NCBI RefSeq assembly: GCF_014137995.1
Contig: NZ_JACGWV010000001.1
Location: forward strand, 2,046,001-2,110,000
Origin: Promicromonospora sukumoe
GTDB taxonomy: Bacteria; Actinomycetota; Actinomycetes; Actinomycetales; Cellulomonadaceae
Direction of reading: 5' to 3'
Length of the DNA stretch: 64,000 nt
This document shows positions 35,399 to 50,061 of the stretch, piece after piece (within the stretch, counting starts at the first letter, position 1; each line of letters starts with the position of its first letter). A program made the position numbers and the translations under genes. A model generated the notes under the pieces. That model was not told where the DNA came from, did no database searches, and was given only the letters and a program-made list of their open reading frames with translations.

Positions 35399-35423
35399 TT
35401 GACCCTGTTCCAGGAACATGGTC
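35399..35423 (+). promoter_or_regulatory. MerR-type promoter with dyad in the spacer
   Basis: TTGACC (35399-35404) is a clear -35 box. The following 19 nt hold the dyad TGTTCC-A-GGAACA (35406-35418), extended by GACC and GGTC to 35401-35423. A candidate -10 (TCCACT) follows at 35424. A dyad in a long 19-nt spacer is the hallmark of MerR-activated promoters. It drives the small efflux gene and faces MerR copy 2. Confidence 0.6.
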
Positions 35424-35437
35424 TCCACTGGGAGCGA

Positions 35438-35453
35438 GCCGAGACGTCTCGGC
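35438..35453. promoter_or_regulatory. 16-bp perfect palindrome
   Basis: GCCGAGACGTCTCGGC is a perfect palindrome 31 nt before the ATG of the small efflux gene and downstream of the MerR-type promoter. It may be a second operator, or a leader hairpin. Confidence 0.5.
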
Positions 35454-35483
35454 AGCACAGCCAGCACTCACAAGGAACTCATC

Positions 35484-36023
35484 ATGAACCCCGTCGAGCA
35501 GCTCGTCTCGAACTTCCAAGAATTCGTGGGCCAGGTCCCCGAGATCATCCGGCCTCTCGTCGTGATGCTCGCCGGCGCCGTCCCGTTCCTCGAGGGCGAG
35601 GTGGCCTCGATGATCGGCGTCCTCGGCGGTCTGAACCCCGTGGTGGCGGGCCTCGCGGCGGCCGCGGGCAACTTCCTGTGCGTGTTCGTGGTCGTGGTTC
35701 TCACGTCGAGGGCGCGCGTCGCCGTCACCGGCTACCGCGCCAGGACCGCCGAAGCGGGTGCCGAGACGCAGGAGCCCGCGCCGGCCAAGCCCGAGTCGAA
35801 GGGCCGCCTGCGCTTCAAGAAGTGGCTCGTCCGGTTCGGTGTTCCCGGTGCGAGCATCCTCGGCCCGCTGGCCATCCCGACCCAGTTCACGTCCGCGATC
35901 CTCGTCGCGGGCGGGACGCCGCGGGCGTGGGTGCTGCTCTGGCAGGCGGTGGCGATCGTCCTGTGGACGACCCTGGCGACCGTCTCGACCACGCTCGCAC
36001 TCCACTTCGTCATCCCCGGCTGA
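35484..36023 (+). CDS. Small multidrug efflux-type membrane protein
   Basis: A 179-residue protein with about four helices and a cytoplasmic loop of about 45 residues (RARTAEAGAETQEPAPAKPE). LVVMLAGAVPFLEGEVASMIGVLGG and the later FGVPGASILGPLAIPTQFTSA resemble the proteins named small multidrug export. That name is historical and the substrate is not proven. AAGGA precedes the ATG. It is the likely target of MerR copy 2. Confidence 0.75.
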   Translation: MNPVEQLVSNFQEFVGQVPEIIRPLVVMLAGAVPFLEGEVASMIGVLGGLNPVVAGLAAAAGNFLCVFVVVVLTSRARVAVTGYRARTAEAGAETQEPAPAKPESKGRLRFKKWLVRFGVPGASILGPLAIPTQFTSAILVAGGTPRAWVLLWQAVAIVLWTTLATVSTTLALHFVIPG

Positions 36024-36043
36024 GCCATCCCCGGCTGAACGGC

Positions 36044-37024
36044 TCAGCCGCTCGCGCGGGGCACGAGCCGGGGCCTGAGCACCTCGTGCCGGTCCTCGGC
36101 ACGCCCGCCCAGCCGCTCGCGCAGCAGCTCCGCCGCGAGCTCGCCCATGCGCTCGCGCGGCTGGTGCACGCTGGTCAGCCGCGGGCGGGCGCGCAGGGCC
36201 AGCGCCGAGTCGTCGTAGCCGACCACCGCGAGGTCGTCCGGGACGTCGAGCCCGTGGTCCCACGCGTGGTCGAGCACGTCGAACGCCTCGACGTCGTTGC
36301 GGGCGAAGACGGCGGTGGAGCCTTCCGCCGTCGCCTCGCGGAGCAGGCCGGTGGCCGCCTCGCCGGGGTGGCGCCGCAGCACGCGGGTGTACGCCTCCAG
36401 GCCGTGCTCGGCCATCGCCGTGCGGTAGCCGCGCTCGCGGGCCAGCCCGGCGGGCCGCCGCGACGACGTCAGGTGGGCGATGCGCTCGTGCCCGGCGGCG
36501 ACGAGGTGGCGCACCACGAGCGCCGCGCCCAGCTCGTCGTCGTTGTTCACCGAGTCGATCCCCGCCACGGGTTCGAGCGAGCGGCCCACCATGATGACCG
36601 GGGCCCGCCGGGCGGCGGACTGCAGGGTGCCGGGGTCGGCCCACGAGGACACGACGATGAGTCCCGCGACGTTCAGGTCGAGCAGCGAGTTCATGCGGTC
36701 GGCCAGGCGGCCCTGGTCCCGGGCCCCGTGGGCCAGGAGCACCGACAGGCCGTCGGCCTGGGCGGCCTGCTCCACCGACTCCACGACCTGCGTGTGGTAC
36801 GGGTTGTCGAGGCTGGAGACCACGACGCCGAGCAGGGTGCTGCGGCGCTGGCGCAGCCCCTGGGCCAGGGTGTTGGACCGGTAGCCCAGCTCGTCGGCGA
36901 CCCGCAGGATGCGCTCGCGGGTCGCGGCCCCGACCCCGGGGGCGTCGCGCAGGGCGAGCGAGACGAGGGACTTCGAGACGCCGGCGTGCGTCGCCACGTC
37001 GATGATGGTCGGCCTCGGGGCCAT
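36044..37024 (-). CDS. LacI-family transcription regulator
   Basis: A 326-residue repressor. The helix-turn-helix and hinge are PTIIDVATHAGVSKSLVSLAL and VADELGYRSNTLAQGLRQRRS. A periplasmic-binding-protein-like effector domain follows (VVSSLDNPYHTQVVESVEQ). GAGGAGAG precedes the ATG. It is divergent from the HAD-HAD/ECF operon, with a perfect LacI-type operator in the gap. A sugar or phosphosugar ligand is typical of the family; the true effector is unknown. Confidence 0.93.
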   Translation of the reverse strand: MAPRPTIIDVATHAGVSKSLVSLALRDAPGVGAATRERILRVADELGYRSNTLAQGLRQRRSTLLGVVVSSLDNPYHTQVVESVEQAAQADGLSVLLAHGARDQGRLADRMNSLLDLNVAGLIVVSSWADPGTLQSAARRAPVIMVGRSLEPVAGIDSVNNDDELGAALVVRHLVAAGHERIAHLTSSRRPAGLARERGYRTAMAEHGLEAYTRVLRRHPGEAATGLLREATAEGSTAVFARNDVEAFDVLDHAWDHGLDVPDDLAVVGYDDSALALRARPRLTSVHQPRERMGELAAELLRERLGGRAEDRHEVLRPRLVPRASG

Positions 37025-37148
37025 GCGCTCTCCTCTCGCGGGCCACCCGGGTCGGGCTGGTCACCCGGGTGCCGCGTCGTCCTGGTGCTCCCACGCCCGT
37101 TTCTACCCGATGCCGGGAGGGTCGCGCGCCGGGTGCGGCGGGGGTGAA

Positions 37149-37162
37149 CTGGAACGTTCCAG
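37149..37162. promoter_or_regulatory. LacI-type operator palindrome
   Basis: CTGGAACGTTCCAG is a perfect 14-bp palindrome with the central CG expected for LacI/PurR-type sites. It lies 125 bp from the LacI start and 77 bp before the GTG of the HAD-HAD gene. Confidence 0.75.
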
Positions 37163-37238
37163 AAATTGGACGTCCGTTCACCTTCGGTCCAGGTGCCCGA
37201 CGCCGGGGCGTCGCCGCCCGTACCTAGCGTCACCGACC

Positions 37239-39059
37239 GTGACCGACACCTCCGCCGCCGGCGCCCCGAGCGCCCCCAGTGCCCTTGCCGCCAGCTCCCT
37301 TGCCGTGAGCGCCCTCGCCGTCCGACCCGAAGCCCTGCTGCTCGACTTCGGCGGCGTGATCTTCCAGACGCGCAAGCGGCCCGAGGAGTGGCCCGGGGTG
37401 GCCGCGTACGTCGCGGAGCACCTGGCCCGCGCGGGCCACCGCATCGCGACGGAGGACCTGGAGTCGGTGCTGCGCGGCGGCAACACGGCCCTGAAGAGCT
37501 GGAAGAACGCACAGTCCCGGCGCCTGGAGCCCACCGAGCTGACGCACCGCGAGATCTGGCGGGACTTCTACGGCTCACCGCTGCCCGCGGCGGCGCGCGA
37601 GGTGCTGGCCGGGAGCGCCGGCCTGCTCCAGCACCACCTCACGGCGACGCTCGCCGAGCACACCGTGCGCCCCGGCATCCCCGAGCTGCTGGACCTCGCC
37701 CGCGACCTGGGCGTCCCGCTCGGCATCGTCTCCAACGCCCACTCGGGCCGGGCGCACCGCGCTCTGCTCGACGAGCACGGGCTCGGCGACGCCTTCGCCG
37801 TGCAGGTGTACTCGGACGAGGTGGGCATCCGCAAGCCGCACCCCGGCATGATCGAGCTCGCCGCCGCGGCCCTCGGGACCGCGCCCGAGCGCTGCTGGTA
37901 CGTGGGGGACACCTACGACCGGGACGTCGTGGCCGGACGGCGCGCGGGCGTCGGCGCCGTGGTGCTCACCCGGCACCACCACACCGACAACCCGCCGTTC
38001 CCCGTGGCGGAGCGGGCGGACGCCGTGCTCGACACCCCGAAGGGCCTGGTCGAGCTGCTCCGCGCGGCGGAACCGGTGGCGCCGTCGTCGGCCCCGCCCA
38101 TGGCGCCGTCGGCGACCCCCTCCCTGGCCGTGCCCGAAAACGGGCCGGCTCCCACCTCTCCTTCGAGCCCGAAGTTTCTTGGCTCCGGGCCCGCCCAAAG
38201 CGAAGAAACTTCGGGCTCGAAGGAGAGGCTCCCCAGCGCCCTGCTGCTCGACCACGGCGGCGTGCTGCACGTGTCGGTGCCCGACGACGCCGTCCGGCTC
38301 GCGTTCGCGGCCGGGCTGGCGGACCGGCTCACCCGCGCGGGCTACCCGCTGACGGCGGACCAGGTGTCCGACGCCATGCCCGAGGTCCGCGCGGCGCACA
38401 AGGACTGGAAGAACCGCTCCGAGGCCGACGCCGCCGGGGCGGACGTGCCCGAGATCGACGCCCGGACCTTCTGGACCCAGCTCGCGCTCGACCCGCTCGC
38501 CCGCCGGGTCGGCGGCGCCGTCGCCGAGGATCCGAGCGGCCTGCGCGCTTGGCTGCGCGCCGAGGCCCACGACCTCATGGCGCGGTACGCCCGCGCCAAG
38601 TCGGTCCCCACGCTGCGCCCCGGCGTGCGCGACCTGCTGGAGGCGGCGCACGCGCACGGCGTCCCGGTCGCCGTCGTCTCGAACACGGTGAACGGCCGCG
38701 CCGTCCGCGAGGAGCTGGACGCCGACGGCATCGGGCACCTCGTGGGCGCCCACGTCTACTCCGACGAGCTCGGCCACCGCAAGCCCGACCGGCTCATGCC
38801 GGCCACGGCGCTGCGCGCGCTCGGCGCCGACCCTGCCACCGCCGTCTTCGTCGGGGACAAGCCGCAGCGCGACGTGCTCGCCGCCCGCGCCGCGGGCGTC
38901 GGCGTCACGGTGCTCGTCCGGGGCGGCTCCACGCCCGACGACGTCCTCGACGCCCTGCACGCCGACGTCGGGCACCCCGCCCGCCCCGACCACGTGATCG
39001 ACGAGATGGGCGACCTGCTCGGCCTGCTGCTGCCGGCCGCGCCGTCCGCCGTCCCCTGA
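37239..39059 (+). CDS. Fused tandem HAD-superfamily hydrolase
   Basis: A 606-residue protein made of two HAD-IA units. Unit 1 (about 28-285): motif I LLLDFGGVIF, motif II IVSNAH, motif III RKPHPG, motif IV YVGDTYDRDV. Unit 2 (about 330-595): LLLDHGGVLH, VVSNTV, RKPDRL, FVGDKPQRDV. In both, Gly replaces the usual second Asp of DxD, as in YihX-like phosphatases. The Ala/Pro-rich linker contains a 26-bp perfect DNA inverted repeat. Start GTG has no Shine-Dalgarno; TAGCGT lies 8 nt upstream, suggesting a leaderless mRNA. Phosphatase activity on a compound moved by the downstream ECF transporter is inferred. Confidence 0.85.
   Translation: MTDTSAAGAPSAPSALAASSLAVSALAVRPEALLLDFGGVIFQTRKRPEEWPGVAAYVAEHLARAGHRIATEDLESVLRGGNTALKSWKNAQSRRLEPTELTHREIWRDFYGSPLPAAAREVLAGSAGLLQHHLTATLAEHTVRPGIPELLDLARDLGVPLGIVSNAHSGRAHRALLDEHGLGDAFAVQVYSDEVGIRKPHPGMIELAAAALGTAPERCWYVGDTYDRDVVAGRRAGVGAVVLTRHHHTDNPPFPVAERADAVLDTPKGLVELLRAAEPVAPSSAPPMAPSATPSLAVPENGPAPTSPSSPKFLGSGPAQSEETSGSKERLPSALLLDHGGVLHVSVPDDAVRLAFAAGLADRLTRAGYPLTADQVSDAMPEVRAAHKDWKNRSEADAAGADVPEIDARTFWTQLALDPLARRVGGAVAEDPSGLRAWLRAEAHDLMARYARAKSVPTLRPGVRDLLEAAHAHGVPVAVVSNTVNGRAVREELDADGIGHLVGAHVYSDELGHRKPDRLMPATALRALGADPATAVFVGDKPQRDVLAARAAGVGVTVLVRGGSTPDDVLDALHADVGHPARPDHVIDEMGDLLGLLLPAAPSAVP
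38155..38228. repeat. 26-bp perfect inverted repeat inside the HAD linker
   Basis: The arms are 38155-38180 and 38203-38228, exact inverted copies with a 22-nt spacer. Each arm contains CTTCGAGCCCGAAGTTTCTT or its complement. The AT content of the arm tips (AGTTTCTT) is foreign to the surrounding coding style. The element falls exactly in the low-complexity linker between the two HAD units and keeps the frame open. It looks like a small palindromic mobile or repeat unit tolerated in a linker, or a strong mRNA hairpin. Confidence 0.7.
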
Positions 39060-39107
39060 CCCGACCGTTCCGACCTACCCGACACCCCCCCCAGAGAGAG
39101 GCCCACC

Positions 39108-40121
39108 ATGTCCGTGCCCGAGCTGGTCGACGACTTCCGCGACCGGATGCGCACCACCGACACCCTGTCGGGTGCGCAGAAGCTGATGATCCTCGTGCTG
39201 TCCATGACCCTGTACGGCGTGGGCGACATCGTCGCCAACATCGTGCCCGACCTCCAGGCCGGTCCCGTCGAGATCGGCGTCTCCTACTTCTCCTTCATCG
39301 CCGTGGTGCTGGCCGCCCTGCTCAACCCGCTCTGGGTCGCCCTGGGCGCGCCGCTCGGCGAGCTGGTCTTCTCCGACATGCTGCTGGGTGACTTCGGCGG
39401 CTTCAGCGAGGTCGAGGGCTGGCTGGAGACGGCGCTCGCGATCTACATCGCCGGCTGCCTCGTGCGCAACCCGCGCAGCGTGCGCCAGCTCTTCTGGGCG
39501 CCGATCGTCATGGTGCTCGTCGACAAGGTCACCGGCGGCATCATCGACATCGCCAAGGTCGCCGTCGGCATCGACCCCGAGGCGCTGGAGGAGAACGACG
39601 GCCTGTTCTCTGCGTTCCTGGTCGCCGAGGGCATCGACCTCACCCTCACCATCGTGATCTCCGGCATCCTGTTCGGCGCCCTGCCGGCCATGTGGCTCGC
39701 CCCACGCCTGTACGGGAAGATCGAGCCGATCATGGGCCTGCGCCCACGCGACCCCGCCCACCCGCCGCGCATGCGCGGTCCGTGGGGCACCTCCATCTGG
39801 GCCGTCGGCGGGCTCGCCTTCGTCGCGGCGGCCGCCGTGGCGCTCGTCGCCGCGTGGGAGGAGACCGCCGGCCGCGACGGCATCTCGACCTTCGCGGCCT
39901 TCGACCCTGACTACGTGGACCGGTTCGGCGACGCCTACCTCTGGATCGCCGCCTCGGTCGCCCTCGTGCTCGGCTTCGGCGTCTTCTTCCTGATCCGCGC
40001 CCTGCGGGCCCGGACGGCGAAGGCTGTTGACACGTCGAGCGAGGCCGCACCGAGCCCGGCCGCGCCGAGCGAGGCCGCAACGGAGCCCACGGACACCACC
40101 AGCACCGGCACGGACGCCTGA
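39108..40121 (+). CDS. ECF transporter S-component-like membrane protein
   Basis: A 337-residue protein with about seven helices. The first 200 residues (KLMILVLSMTLYGVGDIVANI, ALLNPLWVALGAPLGELVF, WAPIVMVLVDKVTGG) have S-component character. The longer length and two extra C-terminal helices are unusual against the typical 170-220 residues. A GAGAGAGG precedes the ATG, 48 bp after the HAD stop. The stop overlaps the ATPase start (TGATG). In an ECF transporter this subunit selects the ligand; the ligand is unknown. Confidence 0.7.
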   Translation: MSVPELVDDFRDRMRTTDTLSGAQKLMILVLSMTLYGVGDIVANIVPDLQAGPVEIGVSYFSFIAVVLAALLNPLWVALGAPLGELVFSDMLLGDFGGFSEVEGWLETALAIYIAGCLVRNPRSVRQLFWAPIVMVLVDKVTGGIIDIAKVAVGIDPEALEENDGLFSAFLVAEGIDLTLTIVISGILFGALPAMWLAPRLYGKIEPIMGLRPRDPAHPPRMRGPWGTSIWAVGGLAFVAAAAVALVAAWEETAGRDGISTFAAFDPDYVDRFGDAYLWIAASVALVLGFGVFFLIRALRARTAKAVDTSSEAAPSPAAPSEAATEPTDTTSTGTDA

Positions 40122-41920
40122 TGGCCGCCCCGACCACGGCCGCGCGGCCGCTTCCGGACGGTTCGCCCGAGGGCTCGGCAGTCGGCAGCGCCGACGGCGG
40201 CACCCCGGCGATCGAGGTCCGCGGGCTCACGTTCCGCTACCCCGGCGCCGAGCGCGACTCCCTGCGCGGCGTCGACCTGCGGATCGAGCGCGGCGACTTC
40301 GTGGCCGTGGTCGGGGGCAACGGCTCCGGCAAGACCACGCTCTGCAAGGCGTTCAACGGGCTGGTGCCGCACTTCTGGAACGGCGACATCTCCGGTGCGG
40401 TCCGCGTCAACGGCCGCACCACCGCCGACCGCACCGTGGGCGAGATCGCCCACGAGGTCGGGTACGTCTTCCAGGACTTCGGCAACCAGCTCGTCCGCCC
40501 CACCGTGCGCGACGACGTCTCCTTCGCCCCCCTCAACTTCGGCCACGCCGACTGGGCCACCCGCACCGACGGGGCCCTGGCCGCCCTCGGCCTGGAGCCC
40601 ATCGCCGACACCTACACCTGGCAGCTCTCCGGCGGCCAGCAGCACCTGACGGCGCTCGCGGGCGCCCTGGCCCTCGCCCCGGACGTGCTCGTGGTCGACG
40701 AGCCCGCCGCCGAGGTGGACCCCGAGCGGGCCGGCGCCGTCTACGAGCACCTCGCGCGGCTCAACCGCGACCTCGGCGTCACCGTCGTCGTGATCGAGCA
40801 CCACGCCGAGCTCGTGGCCCGCTACGCGCGGTCGGTGGTGCTCATGGCCGACGGCGTCGTGCGCTGGCACCTGCCCGTGGCCGAGGCGCTGTCGCGCACC
40901 GCTGACCTGGAGGAGGCGCAGATCCCGGCGCCCCAGATCGTGGCGGCCGCGCGGGCGCTGGTCCCCGAGGTGGCCTCGGGGGAGCGCCGTGTGCCGCTCA
41001 CGGTCGAGGACGCCGCGGACCTGCTCCGGCCGCTCGCGGACGCGGCCACGGCGGTGCCTCGCACCCCGACCGAGCCGGCGTCGTCCGAGGACGGGCCCGA
41101 CGAGCCCGTCGCCACCATGTCCGGCGTCCGCTTCGGGTACCAGCGCATCGGCGGCTCCGGCCGCAGCACCGTGCTCGACGGCCTGGACGTCGAGCTGCGT
41201 GCGGGGGAGCGGGTCGCGCTGGTGGGCTCCAACGGCGCGGGCAAGTCCACGCTGCTCAGCGTCCTGTCGGGCCTGGCGATACCGCAGGAGGGCACGGTCG
41301 TGGTCGACGGGCGCGACACCCGCGCCGTCAGCGCCGCCGACCTCGCCGGGACGGTCTGCTACCTGGTGCAGCGCCCCGAGGAGATGTTCCTGCAGGACTC
41401 GGTCCGGGCCGACGTCGCGATGTACCCGCGGGGCCGCGCCCTGCCCGACGCCGACGAGCTGGTCGAACGCGTGCTGGACCGCACGGCGCTGACCGCGCTG
41501 TCCGACCGCGACGGCCGGCTCCTGTCGGGCGGGCAGCAGCGCCGCGCGACCATCGCCATCGGCCTGGCCATGCGGCCCCGCCTGCTGCTGCTCGACGAGC
41601 CCACCTCCAGCCTCGACCTGCGCTCGCGCGACGACGTGATCTCCATGCTGGCCTCCCTGGCCGAGCACATCCGCTGCTCGGTGATCGCCACGCACGACAT
41701 GCACCTGGTGGCCGAGTGGGCCACCCGGGTGCTGGTCCTCGACCAGGGCCGGGTGCTCGCCGACGTCGATCCCGCCACCCTGTTCGCCTCCCCGGACGTG
41801 CTGCGGCAGGCCCGGCTGGTGCCGCCGCAGGTCGCGCAGCTCGGCACCGCGCTGGGCCTGGACCCCGTGCCGCTCGACGTCGGCTCCCTGATCGCCCGGC
41901 TCGGAAAGGCCCCGTCATGA
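40121..41920 (+). CDS. Fused double ATPase of an ECF transporter (EcfA-EcfA')
   Basis: A 599-residue protein with two ABC domains. Domain 1: Walker A VVGGNGSGKTTL, signature LSGGQQHL, Walker B VLVVDEPAAEVD. Domain 2: Walker A LVGSNGAGKSTLL, signature LSGGQQRR, Walker B LLLLDEPTSSLD. Both are of the CbiO/EcfA type and appear fully active. Fusion of EcfA and EcfA' is common in actinobacteria. It overlaps both neighbours by 1-4 bp, so S, A and T are made together. Confidence 0.92.
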   Translation: MAAPTTAARPLPDGSPEGSAVGSADGGTPAIEVRGLTFRYPGAERDSLRGVDLRIERGDFVAVVGGNGSGKTTLCKAFNGLVPHFWNGDISGAVRVNGRTTADRTVGEIAHEVGYVFQDFGNQLVRPTVRDDVSFAPLNFGHADWATRTDGALAALGLEPIADTYTWQLSGGQQHLTALAGALALAPDVLVVDEPAAEVDPERAGAVYEHLARLNRDLGVTVVVIEHHAELVARYARSVVLMADGVVRWHLPVAEALSRTADLEEAQIPAPQIVAAARALVPEVASGERRVPLTVEDAADLLRPLADAATAVPRTPTEPASSEDGPDEPVATMSGVRFGYQRIGGSGRSTVLDGLDVELRAGERVALVGSNGAGKSTLLSVLSGLAIPQEGTVVVDGRDTRAVSAADLAGTVCYLVQRPEEMFLQDSVRADVAMYPRGRALPDADELVERVLDRTALTALSDRDGRLLSGGQQRRATIAIGLAMRPRLLLLDEPTSSLDLRSRDDVISMLASLAEHIRCSVIATHDMHLVAEWATRVLVLDQGRVLADVDPATLFASPDVLRQARLVPPQVAQLGTALGLDPVPLDVGSLIARLGKAPS

Positions 41921-42813
41921 GCACCCCCGCCACCACCGCGCCCGGCCCCGCCAGCCCTGCCGCCGCCGGCTCCGCCACCGCCAGCCCCAGCACCGCGAAA
42001 GCCCGCAGCGGCCTCGACCGGGCCTCGGTCGAGTGGGTCAAGCTGGAGCTGATGCGCGTGGCCTACGCGACGCGCGGCGGCTTCCTGGCCCGCCGCGACC
42101 CGCGCGCGGTGATCTTCTGGTACGTCCTGTGCGCGCTCGCGCCCTGGTTCACCTACGACACGACCGTGCTCGCGATCCTGTTCGCCGGCGCCCTGGCCTG
42201 CGCGCTCGCGGCCCGCATCGGCCCGCTCCTGCTGGTCCTGTTCACGGTCGGGCTGGTGGGGCAGGGGCTCTACCTGCTGGTCATCGCCCTGGTGCTCGGC
42301 GGCGATCCCGGCGCGGTCGACGGCCTGCTGCAGATCACGCTCAAGCTGGGCACGCTGTCCCTGGCGAGCATGGCGGCGTTCGTGTCGCTGGACCCCGAGA
42401 AGCTCTCCGACGGCCTGCTGGCCCTGCGCGCGCCGGCCGTCGTCGGGTTCGGCGTCTCGTACGGGTACCGGATGGTTCCGCTCCTGGTCGACGAGTTCCA
42501 GACGATCGTGGACGGCCACCGGCTGCGCGGTGCGCCCCACCAGGGGCACGGGTTCCTCGGCTACCGCACCGCCGCGCGGATCGGCACCATCGCCGTCCAG
42601 TCCTTCTACCCGCTCATGCTCAACACGGCCAAGCGCACCCGCACCACCGTGGAGGCGCTGGAGACGCGCGGCTTCACCGTGACGGGCAGCGCCAGCACGG
42701 CGGGGCGCAGCCTCCGGCTCGCCCACCTGCGCCTGACCTGGGCCGACGGCGCGCTGCTGCTCGTCACGGCGGTGGTGATCGTGGCGGCCTACTGGGCGGG
42801 CGCCCTTCTCTGA
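41917..42813 (+). CDS. ECF transporter transmembrane subunit EcfT
   Basis: A 298-residue CbiQ/EcfT-type protein with about five helices after an Ala/Ser/Thr/Pro-rich N-terminus of 30 residues. The coupling helices are recognisable: GYRMVPLLVDEFQTIVDGHRLRG, and later TTVEALETRGFT, in place of the two Ala-Arg-Gly motifs that contact the ATPases. ATGA overlap with the ATPase. It ends the LacI-controlled operon; an imperfect dyad (42835-42870) follows and could help termination. Confidence 0.88.
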   Translation: MSTPATTAPGPASPAAAGSATASPSTAKARSGLDRASVEWVKLELMRVAYATRGGFLARRDPRAVIFWYVLCALAPWFTYDTTVLAILFAGALACALAARIGPLLLVLFTVGLVGQGLYLLVIALVLGGDPGAVDGLLQITLKLGTLSLASMAAFVSLDPEKLSDGLLALRAPAVVGFGVSYGYRMVPLLVDEFQTIVDGHRLRGAPHQGHGFLGYRTAARIGTIAVQSFYPLMLNTAKRTRTTVEALETRGFTVTGSASTAGRSLRLAHLRLTWADGALLLVTAVVIVAAYWAGALL

Positions 42814-42968
42814 CGGTCACACCGACCACGTCAGGGTGTTCGATCTCATGCTCGATCATGGGATCTCACCCGCCGGTTCTTCCTGCGCGCCTTGGTTTTC
42901 CCAGGCTGGCGGTGCACAGTTCTGCTGAACCACGCAGCGCGCACCGCTGCCTGATCGATAGGAACGCC

Positions 42969-43640
42969 TTGAACGACTCCCAGCCGTCGCCGAACACCGT
43001 CGAGGCCGCCCTGGCCCCGGGCCAGGAAGCCCCTGTCGGCCGGTACCGGCTCGAACTGAGCACGGGCCGGTGGGCCTGGTCGGACGAGGTCTTCGTGATG
43101 CACGGCTTCCAGCCCGGTGAGGTGGTGCCGACCACCGAGCTGGTGCTCGCCCACAAGCACCCGGAGGACCGGGAACGGGTGGACCACGTGATGCGCAAGG
43201 CCAACGCGACGGGCCGCCCGTTCAGCTCCGTGCACCGCATCCAGGACGCCCAGGGCACGACCCGCACGCTCACGGTCACCGGTCAGGCCACGCGTGACCC
43301 GAAGACCGGCGAGGTCACCGAGATCCGTGGGTACTTCATCGACGTCACCGAGGCCAGCCGGGAGGACGCCGCGCAGCAGGCGACCTCCTTCATCAAGGCG
43401 TCGTCGGAGAGCAGGGCGTCGATCGAGCAGGCCAAGGGCGTCCTCATGGTGGCGTTCGGCATCGAGGACTCCGCGGCGTTCGACCGCCTGCGGACGGCGT
43501 CCAACGACCTCAACATCCCGGTCCGGGACCTCGCCGGCTGGCTGATGAGCTGGTTCACCGACTCGTCGAACACCGAGATGCCGACGGCGGACGAGGTGGC
43601 CGACTTCCTCACCGCGCCGGTGCCGTCCGCGGGCGACTGA
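42969..43640 (+). CDS. PAS-ANTAR putative RNA-binding antiterminator (copy 1)
   Basis: A 223-residue protein. The PAS_3 fold spans about 20-135 (WAWSDEVFVMHGFQPGEV; HPEDRERVDHVM). A three-helix ANTAR domain follows at about 150-205 (SRASIEQAKGVLMVAFGIED). ANTAR proteins bind paired hairpins in nascent RNA to block termination. Here the sensor is PAS rather than a kinase-coupled receiver. Start is taken as TTG at 42969 with AGGAA 4-5 nt upstream, because no ATG or GTG fits the PAS boundary. It is paralogous to 45848-46612. Confidence 0.82.
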   Translation: MNDSQPSPNTVEAALAPGQEAPVGRYRLELSTGRWAWSDEVFVMHGFQPGEVVPTTELVLAHKHPEDRERVDHVMRKANATGRPFSSVHRIQDAQGTTRTLTVTGQATRDPKTGEVTEIRGYFIDVTEASREDAAQQATSFIKASSESRASIEQAKGVLMVAFGIEDSAAFDRLRTASNDLNIPVRDLAGWLMSWFTDSSNTEMPTADEVADFLTAPVPSAGD

Positions 43641-45708: not shown

Positions 45709-45847
45709 TCTGACGTACTGCCGATCACGCGCGCTCAGCCTCTCCTGTCCTGGTCGCTCCTGGGCGGGCGAAATTCATGGGGAGGTATACGCTCGGTAAG
45801 CCGGGGTCATGAAGTGGCTCCAGGTCCGGTTGGATCTGGAGGTCAGC

Positions 45848-46612
45848 ATGCGTCCAGGCAGTAAATCCCCCCTCGCCCTCGCCGAGAAGGCCGCGGACGG
45901 TTCACGGTTGCCGTCGCTCTCGCTGGCCGAGGTGGCCGGTTCCCTCGGTCTCGGCACCAGCCTGCTGGTCGGCCGTTTCCGCGTGGGCGTCGCCTCGGGG
46001 TGCTGGTGGTGGTCCGACGAGGTCTACGCCATGCACGACTGGAAGCCGCACGAGGTGCAGCCGAGCCTGGACGCGCTCCGGTCCCGCAAGCACCCCGACG
46101 ACCGGGCCCGCGTGGTCCGGACCGTGACCGACGCCCTGCGCGCCGGGCGGCCCTTCGCGTGCGCGCACCGCATCGTCGACACGAGCTCCCGCACCCGTTC
46201 GGTCGTGGTGATCGGTCAGGGGCGGCGGTGCGTCGAGGACGGCTCCCTGGAGGTGGCCGGCTACGTGCTGGACGTGACTCCGGTCCAAGAGGAGGCCCTG
46301 CACCGCCGGACCCAGGGGAGCGTGGACCGGGCGTTCGTCAGCCAGGCCGTCATCGAGCAGGCCAAGGGGATCGTCGTCGCCGTCCGCGGTGTGGCGGACG
46401 ACGTCGCCGAGCGCGCCCTGCGCGACGTCGCGACCGCGACGGGGATCTCGCTGCAGGCCGCGGCCGAGCAGGTGGTGGAGGCGCTCCGGACGGACACCGG
46501 GACGCCGGGCGTCTCGGGCGCCGCCCTGACGCGGGTGCTCGACGCCGTCGTGCCGGTCGGGCGGCCCCGCCGGCACGACGCGCTCCTGACCCGGCGCACG
46601 ATGGCGAGCTGA
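45848..46612 (+). CDS. PAS-ANTAR putative RNA-binding antiterminator (copy 2)
   Basis: A 254-residue paralogue of copy 1. PAS: CWWWSDEVYAMHDWKPHEV and HPDDRARVVRTV. ANTAR: SQAVIEQAKGIVVAVRGVADD. A 45-residue N-terminal extension precedes the PAS domain, and the C-terminus (RRHDALLTRRTMAS) is basic. CTGGAGG lies 6 nt before the ATG at 45848. GGTATACGCT around 45785 may be its promoter. RNA targets are unknown. Confidence 0.82.
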   Translation: MRPGSKSPLALAEKAADGSRLPSLSLAEVAGSLGLGTSLLVGRFRVGVASGCWWWSDEVYAMHDWKPHEVQPSLDALRSRKHPDDRARVVRTVTDALRAGRPFACAHRIVDTSSRTRSVVVIGQGRRCVEDGSLEVAGYVLDVTPVQEEALHRRTQGSVDRAFVSQAVIEQAKGIVVAVRGVADDVAERALRDVATATGISLQAAAEQVVEALRTDTGTPGVSGAALTRVLDAVVPVGRPRRHDALLTRRTMAS

Positions 46613-46635: not shown

Positions 46636-48093
46636 TCAGCCGATGCCGATCGAGCCGACCGCGATCCCGACCACGAGCATGACCAGCGACACCACGACGG
46701 CCCGCCACAGGACCTTCTTGTGGTGGTCGCCCAGGTTCACGCCAGCGAGCGAGATGAGCAGCAGGATCGCGGGCACCAGCGGGCTCTGCATGTGCACGAC
46801 CTGACCGGTGATCGACGCGCGCGCCATGTCGACCGGGTCGATGCCGAAGGCCGCCGCGCTCTCCGCGAGCACCGGGAGGATGCCGAAGTAGAAGGCGTCG
46901 TTCGACAGGAAGAACGTCATCGGGATGCTCAGCAGCCCCGTGATCACCGCCGAGAACGCGCCGAGCTGGTCGGGGATGCTGCCCGACACCCACGCGGCCA
47001 TGGCGTCGACCATGCCCGTGCCCTCCAGGACGCCGATCAGCACGCCCGCCGTGAGCACCATCGACACCACGCCGACGATCGAGGGGGCGTGGGCCACGAT
47101 GCGCTGCGCCTGGTCGGAGACCCGGGGGAAGTTCGCGATGACCGCGACGGCGCTGCCGGCCATGAAGACGTACGCCAGCGGCAGCACGTCCGCGACGAGC
47201 AGCACCATCACGACGGTCGTCAGCGCGAGGTTGAACCAGAACATCTTCGGGCGCAGGGTCGAGCGCTGCGGGTCGAGCATGCTGTCCGCCATGGCGGTGT
47301 CGTCCGGCTTCACGAGCGTCTGGATGGCGACGGTCGAGATGCGCTCCACCTGGGTGACGGTCCCGCCGCCGTGCCCGCCGTCGTGCGCGCCGCCCGAACC
47401 CGAACCCGAACCCGAACCCGAACCGAGGCCGGAACCGCCGGCCTCGCCTGCGCGCATGCCCTCCCCGGGCAGGTCGATCGTGCCGAGACGGCGCCGCTCC
47501 AGCAGGCCGAGGTGCCACGAGAACGCGAAGATGACGACCAGCCCGGCCAGCAACGAGGGCACCATCGGCACGAACACGTCGCTCGGCGACAGGTCGAGGG
47601 CCGCGGCGGCGCGGGCGGTCGGACCGCCCCAGGGCAGGATGTTCATGGCGCCGTTCGCCAGGCCCGCGACGCAGGTGAGCACCACGGGGCTCAGGCCGAG
47701 GCGCAGGTAGATCGGCAGCATGGCGCTGGTGACCACGATGAAGGTCGTGGAGCCGTCGCCGTCGAGCGAGATCACCGCCGCCAGGAGGGCGGTACCCACG
47801 ACGACCTTGACCGGGTCGTGGCCCACCAGGCGCAGGATGACGCGCACGAGCGGGTCGAACAGCCCGACGTCGATCATCAGGCCGAAGTAGATGATGGCGA
47901 ACATCAGCAGGGCGGCGGTGGGGGCGAGGCCCCCGATGGCGTCCAGCGCCATGTCACCGATCCCGAGGCCGGCGCCGGCGAACAGGCCGAAGACCGTGGG
48001 GACGATGATGAGCGCGAGGACCGGGGTCATGCGCTTGGTCATGATCAGCACCATGAAGGTGGCGACCATTCCGAATCCGAGCAGAACAAGCAC
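46636..48093 (-). CDS. CitMHS-family citrate-metal/H+ symporter
   Basis: A 485-residue permease with about 12 helices. LIMTKRMTPVLALIIVPTVFGL and AIISLDGDGSTTFIVVTSA (near 105-125) and NILPWGGPTARAA are typical of CitMHS proteins, which import citrate complexed with divalent metal. The central loop contains GSGLGSGSGSGSGSGG, encoded by a hexanucleotide repeat. It is divergent from a CitA/CitB-type two-component system that very likely controls it. Confidence 0.9.
   Translation of the reverse strand: MLVLLGFGMVATFMVLIMTKRMTPVLALIIVPTVFGLFAGAGLGIGDMALDAIGGLAPTAALLMFAIIYFGLMIDVGLFDPLVRVILRLVGHDPVKVVVGTALLAAVISLDGDGSTTFIVVTSAMLPIYLRLGLSPVVLTCVAGLANGAMNILPWGGPTARAAAALDLSPSDVFVPMVPSLLAGLVVIFAFSWHLGLLERRRLGTIDLPGEGMRAGEAGGSGLGSGSGSGSGSGGAHDGGHGGGTVTQVERISTVAIQTLVKPDDTAMADSMLDPQRSTLRPKMFWFNLALTTVVMVLLVADVLPLAYVFMAGSAVAVIANFPRVSDQAQRIVAHAPSIVGVVSMVLTAGVLIGVLEGTGMVDAMAAWVSGSIPDQLGAFSAVITGLLSIPMTFFLSNDAFYFGILPVLAESAAAFGIDPVDMARASITGQVVHMQSPLVPAILLLISLAGVNLGDHHKKVLWRAVVVSLVMLVVGIAVGSIGIG
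47393..47424. repeat. Hexanucleotide microsatellite in the transporter loop
   Basis: About five copies of the unit CGAACC run from 47393 to 47424. On the coding strand they encode Gly-Ser repeats in a cytoplasmic loop. Slippage would add or remove two residues per unit without shifting frame. Confidence 0.8.
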
Positions 48094-48181
48094 GGGAGAC
48101 TCCTTCGTCTGGCCGGCTGGGGGGCGGCGGGTGCGATAACCCGGTCACCCTAGGAACGGGTCGCCCGTCGCCGCGCGCTAC

Positions 48182-48228
48182 TGCGCGTTCTGGCGGAATA
48201 CCGCACAGAACTCGTTGTGCGCGTTCTG
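48182..48228. promoter_or_regulatory. Repeated GTTCTG sites, candidate CitB operators
   Basis: TGCGCGTTCTG occurs at 48182-48192 and again at 48218-48228, 36 bp apart. An inverted CAGAAC lies between them at 48206-48211. They sit in the gap between the CitMHS gene and the CitA-like kinase. Direct repeats of this spacing suit dimeric response-regulator binding. Confidence 0.45.
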
Positions 48229-48270
48229 CTCACGGGTGGTCGCGGCCGTCCGCGTGGTTAGCATGCGAGC

Positions 48271-50061
48271 ATGCCGACGACGCACCCCCGGGGAACGCCG
48301 CCCGGGGGACGCCCGGCCACCCCGCGCACCACCTCGCTCGCCACTCCGCCAACCATCCCGTTCACCACCCAGGTCAACCGGTCGATCGTGGCCGCGATGA
48401 TCGTGGTGTCCCTCATCACGCTCGGCCTGTTCGCGGTCACCGGGTTCAACCGGCTCGTGCAGCAGACCCAGGAGTCCGCGCTGCGCATCGCCCAGACCGT
48501 GGCGCAGACCCCCGAGGTTCGGGCCGGCGCCGAGGACGAGTCGGAGCGGCAGCCGCCGTCGACCGACGCCGAGCTCGTCGCCGGCACCCTCGACGACTAC
48601 GCCCGAGAGGTCGAGGGCCGCACCGGCGCCCTGTTCGTGGTGATCACCGACGACACCGGGCGGCGCCTCGCGCATCCCGTCCCCGGCGAGATCGGCGACC
48701 CCGTCTCCACCAGCCCCGACGCCGCGCTGCGCGGCGAGGAGACGGTGAGCTGGGAGCGCGGCACCCTCGGCGTCTCGGCGCGGGCCAAGGTCCCCGTCTA
48801 CGGGCTCGACAGCCCCGACACGGTGGTGGGAGAGGTGAGCGTCGGGCTGCCGCCCACCGAGGTGTGGTCCACCGTGCTGGCCGACGCCGTCCCGGTGGTG
48901 CTCTCGACGGCGCTCGCGCTCGGGGTCGGCGGGCTGCTCGCCCGGTTCATCACGCGCCGGCTGCGCGAGAAGACCCTCGGCCTCCAGCCCGAGGAGCTGC
49001 TCGCGCTGGTCCACGACCAGCAGGCCGTGCTGCAGGGGGTCGACGACGGCGTGGTCGGGCTCTCGGCCGACGACGTCGTCACCGTGTGCAACGACCGCGC
49101 CGCGGCCCTCCTGGGCCTGGACGACCCGGTGGGGCGCCGGGTCGAGGAGGCGGTCGGGCACGCGGGCGTCGTCGAGCGGATCAAGGGTGCCCGGTCGTTA
49201 GGGCCGACGACGGCGGACGATCCCGACGTCGGACACGACGCCCCGCCGGCCCCGCCGCTCGTCGTGTACGGGCGACTCGTCTACGTCGACGTGCACGACG
49301 TGCGGCGCGAGGGCCGGCTGCTCGGGCGCGTGGTGATCGTGCGCGACGTGACGGCGGTCGAGGACCTGACCCGCCGCCTGACCGCCGTCGGCACGCTGGC
49401 CGGAGCGCTCCGGGAGCAGCGGCACGAGTTCGCCAACCGCATCCACGTGGTGACCGGCCTGGTGCGCGCCGGGGACACGACCGAGGCCCTCGACTACCTG
49501 GACCGCATCGGCGAGCACGGCCCGGTGCGCTTCCCCGTCGCCAACGCGGGCCTCGTCCGGGAGCCCTACCTGCAGGCGTTCCTCGGCGCGAAGGCGCTGG
49601 AGGCAGAGCGCCAGGGGGTGACGCTCCGCATCGGCCCCGACGCCGACGTGAGCGGTTCGCTGCTGCACCCCGAGGACGTCACCACCGTGCTCGGCAACCT
49701 CGTGGACAACGGCATCGCGGCGGCCGTGGCCTCGGAGCGCGCTCCCCGCTGGGTCGAGGTGGAGGCCCTCCGGCACGGCGACGAGCTGCATCTGTCGGTC
49801 ATGGACTCCGGCGACGGCGCGGCGGCCGACCCGTTCGCGCCGGAGCCCCGACCTGCGGAGCCAGAGCCGGGGGAGCCAGGCCCGGGGGAGGCCGGCGCCG
49901 CCGGCCCGGCGCACGGCCACGGCATCGGGCTGCGCCTCTCGGCCGACGTCGCGCGACGGCACGGCGGCGAGCTGCGGCTCGCGATGGGCCGCACCGAGCG
50001 GCACGGCGCGGTCTTCGTGGCTCGCCTGGACCACCAGTTCGAACAGGAGGACGGCCGATGA
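48271..50061 (+). CDS. CitA/DcuS-family sensor histidine kinase
   Basis: A 596-residue kinase. TM1 at about 38-60, an extracytoplasmic PAS-like (Cache) domain to about 205, TM2 at about 208-230, a cytoplasmic PAS (LQGVDDGVVGLSADD), then the SPOB-type DHp helix with His385 in REQRHEFANRIHVV. The ATPase has NLVDNGIAAAV (N-box), DSGDGA and GHGIGL. The family senses citrate or C4-dicarboxylates. TAGCAT (48259-48264) lies 6 nt before the ATG without a Shine-Dalgarno, so the mRNA is probably leaderless. A Pro/Glu-rich insert separates the ATP-lid motifs. Confidence 0.92.
   Translation: MPTTHPRGTPPGGRPATPRTTSLATPPTIPFTTQVNRSIVAAMIVVSLITLGLFAVTGFNRLVQQTQESALRIAQTVAQTPEVRAGAEDESERQPPSTDAELVAGTLDDYAREVEGRTGALFVVITDDTGRRLAHPVPGEIGDPVSTSPDAALRGEETVSWERGTLGVSARAKVPVYGLDSPDTVVGEVSVGLPPTEVWSTVLADAVPVVLSTALALGVGGLLARFITRRLREKTLGLQPEELLALVHDQQAVLQGVDDGVVGLSADDVVTVCNDRAAALLGLDDPVGRRVEEAVGHAGVVERIKGARSLGPTTADDPDVGHDAPPAPPLVVYGRLVYVDVHDVRREGRLLGRVVIVRDVTAVEDLTRRLTAVGTLAGALREQRHEFANRIHVVTGLVRAGDTTEALDYLDRIGEHGPVRFPVANAGLVREPYLQAFLGAKALEAERQGVTLRIGPDADVSGSLLHPEDVTTVLGNLVDNGIAAAVASERAPRWVEVEALRHGDELHLSVMDSGDGAAADPFAPEPRPAEPEPGEPGPGEAGAAGPAHGHGIGLRLSADVARRHGGELRLAMGRTERHGAVFVARLDHQFEQEDGR

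Follow-up and report, generated by a model that had tools for sequence, protein, structure and literature searches.

A conserved locus in Promicromonospora sukumoe linking a tandem HAD hydrolase and a LacI repressor to a predicted ECF importer with a DUF8171 S component

What is imported by an energy-coupling factor (ECF) transporter whose operon also encodes a fused double hydrolase of the haloacid dehalogenase type (HAD-HAD) and is read divergently from a LacI-family repressor gene? The question is raised by five genes (Table 1) in a 64,000-nucleotide stretch of P. sukumoe, hereafter the window, which belongs to a genome of 6.5 Mb. The original prediction had described these genes with a perfect LacI operator and suggested the uptake of a sugar- or nucleoside-like vitamin precursor that is dephosphorylated by the HAD pair. 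The observation was confirmed for all five genes and the operator by open reading frame (ORF) coordinates, domain matches and the position of the palindrome. The interpretation was supported in part: the ECF genes are tied to HAD-HAD and LacI, but a vitamin precursor found no support. The S protein is predicted to fold like known ECF S components, and its operon supplies fused ATPases and an EcfT of its own; this putative importer co-occurs with the double HAD hydrolase and a local LacI, with a conserved candidate operator in the shared promoter. The locus may constitute a self-contained nutrient-salvage cassette for a sugar-, polyol- or nucleoside-like accessory nutrient, a reading about evenly poised between right and wrong. 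A sugar- or polyol-like cargo is favoured over a vitamin.

The S gene was found in 20 of 101 genomes of the family, 42 of 396 of the order, 11 of 296 of the class and 10 of 396 of the phylum (the sets overlap, and the order to phylum counts include weak non-cassette matches in G153, G388, G1006 and G610). It was not found in any of the seven other same-genus genomes listed. HAD-HAD (E <= 1e-40) is present in exactly the same 20 family genomes. Neighbourhoods were compared by tblastn at 70 loci (all S positives and two further loci), which comprise 55 distinct Actinomycetia loci (window included), 10 loci of a second form, one duplicate (L009 and L068 are taken as one locus and counted once) and four weak matches (L123, L155-L157) that are other systems. 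The order divergent LacI, HAD-HAD, S, fused ATPases, EcfT is kept in 54 of the 55. At the exception, L096, the three transporter genes are convergent to HAD-HAD and no LacI gene was found within about 8 kb. The co-occurrence of S and HAD-HAD, which the original prediction had proposed as a check, thus extends to all 55 loci, where HAD-HAD adjoins the ECF genes (one locus being split), and the genes for S, the ATPases and EcfT are consecutive at every canonical locus (54), at L096 and at all 10 loci of the second form. Outside the five genes, at most 8 of 62 loci shared any one gene cluster, in a comparison that left the relatives' flanking genes unannotated. The conservation of gene order and co-occurrence is well beyond chance. 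Pairwise-distance correlations over 54 loci were highest for LacI and HAD-HAD (0.88), S and EcfT (0.85) and the ATPases and EcfT (0.85), intermediate for HAD-HAD and ATPases (0.81), LacI and ATPases (0.81), HAD-HAD and EcfT (0.71), LacI and EcfT (0.70) and S and ATPases (0.69), and lowest for HAD-HAD and S (0.57) and LacI and S (0.44). The proteins compared were cut from tblastn ranges, the longest stop-free piece being used if a stop was present. Co-evolution of the cassette parts is good, not uniform, and in some lineages S may have been swapped relative to LacI and HAD-HAD.

The operator CTGGAACGTTCCAG is the only match in the window within two mismatches. Shuffled controls averaged 0.22 matches, and 20 of 100 contained one or more; the window count alone is insufficient, and the significance of the site rests on its conservation. 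Allowing one mismatch, the 12-nt core TGGAACGTTCCA occurred upstream of HAD-HAD in 46 of 56 gaps (perfectly in 31, with one mismatch in 15; the 56 count both members of the L009/L068 duplicate and also the region upstream at the split locus L096), compared with 19 of 1120 windows drawn at random from these loci. Together with a divergent LacI relative in 54 of 55 loci, this bears out the perfect operator noted in the original prediction and ties the cassette to a dedicated LacI. The perfect core occurs once in the genome of the window. Exact TGGAACGYTCCA was detected in 38 of 46 cassette genomes scanned and lies near the cassette in all 38; it is over-represented in two genomes of one genus, G039 (11 sites) and G017 (15 sites), where most copies lie within ORFs. 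L096 has two perfect sites before the HAD gene and one imperfect site before the S operon. Eight of the 10 gaps without the core (L099, L101-L104, L108, L110 and L119) carry CTGAA-N4-TTCAG, an element without the central CG and in each case the sole copy in its locus. This element, first noticed by eye and counted afterwards, is absent from the other 46 gaps and was found in 25 of 2000 control windows; the random windows for both operator types could contain a true site. The HAD-HAD upstream gaps of L105 and L114 contain neither type. In the corresponding LacI clade the recognition-helix positions 18-20 are S/P, mostly A, and A/T/S, versus mostly K-S-L elsewhere (7 vs 47 loci, L102 being left among the rest), and the stretch holding the hinge helix is missing. 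The clade appears to be a natural switch of LacI operator type inside one orthologous cassette. Residues R196, N243, D271 and Q288 of LacI are conserved in more than 90% of rows with a letter, agree better with RbsR than with CcpA in alignments, and presumably match the sugar-contact positions of E. coli LacI. A helix-turn-helix (HTH) and a sugar-binding-type domain, with a palindrome at the promoter, point to a dedicated operator.

S had no match in the local Pfam and NCBIfam libraries at the thresholds used, and a profile search of the PDB gave matches only at E 0.08-0.16, so that a curated S family of vitamin or metal cargo was rejected. PF26509 (DUF8171) is present in all 112 S homologues retrieved. 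The original prediction had allowed for S being a known, characterised family; DUF8171 is named but uncharacterised. The family is large, with 3030 of 8000 scored candidates at E <= 0.001; its listed members are named hypothetical protein, DUF8171 or cell division protein FtsQ in their sources. The name FtsQ was rejected on the lack of an FtsQ/POTRA family match and on the polytopic S fold. In the comparison of the AlphaFold2 (AF2) model (mean predicted local distance difference test score, pLDDT, 82) with known folds, the check suggested at the outset, the 19 best rows are all S components (Z up to 13.5; next row 6.5). The extra helices noted in this long protein lie at residues 230-254 and 276-312 of the model. 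Solved S components (FolT, ThiT, RibU, PanT, BioY and NikM2) are 8-16% identical to S, which differs from them by an extra C-terminal hairpin with a conserved loop. The conserved polar residues of S are mainly acidic, including most of those on the presumed outer side (E101, E103, D147, E161, E174), with a single Lys (Lys150) and no conserved His or Cys. Walker A, LSGGQ and Walker B are intact in both halves of the fused ATPase, and EcfT has two motifs in which R-G is preceded by a residue other than the Ala of Ala-Arg-Gly (LRG and TRG, read from the sequence). An AXXXA docking motif in helix 1 is described as relatively conserved among S components (PMC11109136). Helix 1 of S has no literal AXXXA, only a non-conserved GDIVA at 39-43, with small residues at 32, 34, 37 and 39. 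On the basis of fold, subunit set and single operon, the cassette is predicted to encode an ECF importer of group I, the dedicated kind, whose S belongs to a new family, and the S fold of the model, the two ATPase domains and EcfT agree with the complete transporter first proposed. The group I transporter YkoEDC, for thiamine or a precursor, is described with the same arrangement of an S gene, one gene with two ATPase domains and a T gene in a single operon (PMC5037267). The cassette differs in an S of another family by Pfam and NCBIfam (no match) with two extra helices, in LacI control, in the HAD-HAD gene within the operon, and in that no riboswitch was found in 35400-43000. Short S-like proteins at L123 (7995-8561; 188 aa) and L155, each with its own fused ATPases and EcfT nearby, are remote DUF8171 relatives.

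The two halves of HAD-HAD share 36% identity, and each takes the class I (helical cap) HAD fold in a model of mean pLDDT 89; the closest named homologues, up to 96% identical, are those of P. sukumoe. Among the best 120 of 395 homologues, the nucleophile Asp is conserved as D36 in 117 (three gaps) and D338 in 120, the motif II Ser as S165 in 120 and S481 in 119, and the motif III and IV residues K199, K515, D224, D540, D229 and D545 in 120 each. Asp+2 is replaced by Gly in both halves (Gly38 in 117, with three gaps; Gly340 in 120), so that in these homologues neither half shows the canonical DxD of phosphatases, in which Asp+2 is the general acid/base. Gly at this position, which is also found in YihX, is compatible with substrates needing little protonation of the leaving group, such as anomeric phosphates. 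Phosphatase activity is likely rather than proven, because dehalogenases are among the tied structural neighbours, and with Asp+2 missing from both halves the dephosphorylation first proposed for the HAD pair is left unproven. Class I HAD phosphatases acting on sugar-like phosphates (YihX/HAD4, the MtlD phosphatase domain, AlnB and CbbY) have the fold and most catalytic motifs in common with HAD-HAD, which differs in its fused tandem and in the Gly of both halves. To YihX, an alpha-glucose-1-phosphatase (PMC4251788), the sequence match is weak (E 5e-6 to profile), and fold scores are tied with many other HADs. The linker between the halves contains a translated repeat of 74 nt with 36-nt arms, 92% complementary. 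The arm has 45 matches in the genome of the window, in about 31 places after pairing (<=2 mismatches), and the repeat is matched in 6 of 19 genomes searched (window's genome included), all of the same genus; a similar linker peptide is kept in three HAD-HAD homologues named P. sukumoe. An orphan second HAD-HAD copy (G060:C5:91527-93119, L158) has an apparently degenerate N-terminal half, and no ECF gene was recognised alongside.

A second form of the cassette was found in 10 of 197 genomes of the class containing G488, which we take to be Coriobacteriia from close homologues named Olsenella and from known taxonomy. All 10 loci have the order S, fused ATPases, EcfT, PHP and RpiR on one strand, and neither HAD-HAD nor LacI was found in their tblastn neighbourhoods. 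A HAD gene unlinked from the ECF genes in relatives had been named as a possible objection to the original prediction; the linkage holds throughout the Actinomycetia loci, but here a PHP hydrolase takes the place of HAD-HAD. The enzyme is of the PHP metallohydrolase type (PHP_C above the cut-off, PHP just below), and all four copies inspected contain its metal motifs. It resembles CehA/McbA-type enzymes in those motifs and in the NCBIfam domain (E 2e-16; 60 of 80 bits, i.e. below the curated cut-off), and differs in its linkage to an ECF operon. The regulator has an RpiR HTH and an SIS domain. PHP (E <= 1e-30) occurs in 11 of the 197 genomes, namely all 10 that carry S plus G1143, whose locus (L159) retains EcfT, PHP, RpiR and the rear of the ATPase gene, whereas S and the front of the ATPase gene were not found, through decay, rearrangement or an assembly fault. 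The same transporter family thus pairs with either of two hydrolases, unrelated to each other, and with either of two regulators, likewise unrelated. This swap offers the best indication that the substrate of the enzyme is the cargo or a product of it, and gives two independent handles on the cargo. LacI and RpiR/SIS families usually sense sugars or sugar phosphates.

In the proposed mechanism, LacI would keep the divergent promoter shut when no ligand is present. S would capture a small hydroxylated molecule, neutral or cationic in view of its mainly acidic conserved residues and Lys150, and probably not a metal, since no His or Cys is conserved. Loaded S would topple onto the complex of EcfT and the fused ATPases and release the cargo inside, where HAD-HAD (the PHP enzyme in Coriobacteriia) would hydrolyse it, either as such or once phosphorylated; the bond cleaved is probably a phosphate ester whose leaving group is a good one. 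The product may feed core metabolism, as no further cluster is shared by the flanks of more than 8 of 62 loci, and cargo or product would lift LacI (RpiR/SIS in Coriobacteriia).

The strongest alternative, although unlikely, is an importer of a vitamin or cofactor precursor (e.g. phosphorylated or nucleoside-like) from which HAD-HAD removes the phosphate. ECF importers are described as micronutrient importers, YkoEDC shares the gene set of S, fused ATPases and T (PMC5037267), and some HAD phosphatases use cofactor phosphates such as pyridoxal phosphate (weak matches). A sugar or polyol is nevertheless preferred because of the regulator families, the absence of a riboswitch and the patchy accessory distribution, even inside the genus. 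The lack of a recurrent flanking cluster also speaks against a vitamin, although a linked vitamin gene in single lineages is possible. Uptake of an already phosphorylated compound (a sugar phosphate or similar) as phosphorus and carbon source is less probable still: the two unrelated enzymes serving one transporter family both come from phosphoesterase-rich superfamilies (HAD and PHP), but for an anionic cargo one would expect Arg or Lys on the outer side of S, which is mostly acidic. Equally improbable is another HAD or damage-control reaction (dehalogenase-like, or side-product clean-up) in place of phosphatase activity, given the intact acidic residues of motif IV, the Gly shared with YihX and the PHP-type counterpart in the second class.

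With DUF8171 assigned as a predicted S component, and with an enzyme and a regulator conserved beside it, an orphan family becomes an uptake pathway that can be tested; should the cargo be sugar-like, this would extend ECF transport past vitamins and metals. A bolder reading of the salvage cassette, possible but on balance doubtful, is that DUF8171 marks the first ECF importers specialised for a carbon source of carbohydrate or polyol type, induced in the manner of a sugar operon. Their cytosolic hydrolase would be interchangeable between HAD-HAD and PHP and their sugar-type repressor between LacI and RpiR/SIS, and in their eight-helix S an outer hairpin loop would help to close the pocket.

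Table 1. Features of the cassette, with positions in the window
Feature	Position	Strand	Basis or remarks
LacI-family repressor	36044-37024	-	divergent to operon; Pfam LacI 46.8 bits, Peripla_BP_3 124 bits
LacI operator (predicted), perfect 14-nt palindrome CTGGAACGTTCCAG	37149-37162		palindrome and conservation
HAD-HAD fused hydrolase, 606 aa, GTG start	37239-39059	+	two HAD units (domain search)
Palindromic repeat element in HAD-HAD inter-domain linker, in frame	38155-38228		inverted repeat 36+36 nt
S component, DUF8171/PF26509, 337 aa	39108-40121	+	PF26509 of homologues; predicted six-helix S fold and C-terminal two-helix hairpin
EcfA-EcfA' fused ATPases	40121-41920	+	two ABC_tran units; TIGR04520/TIGR04521 above cut-off
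EcfT (CbiQ family) scaffold subunit	41917-42813	+	PF02361 46.6 bits, cut-off 25

The GTG start of HAD-HAD is probably the best placed; a longer ORF overlaps LacI. The overlaps noted between the three transporter genes amount to 1 nt (S and ATPases) and 4 nt (ATPases and EcfT). Just downstream of the cassette are two PAS-ANTAR proteins (42969-43640 and 45809-46612), between whose genes lie those for a CPBP/Rce1-like protease and a DUF2071 protein. At 46636-50061 a gene of the CitMHS citrate-transporter family is divergent to that of a Cache-domain sensor histidine kinase, which looks like an ordinary citrate-type pair.
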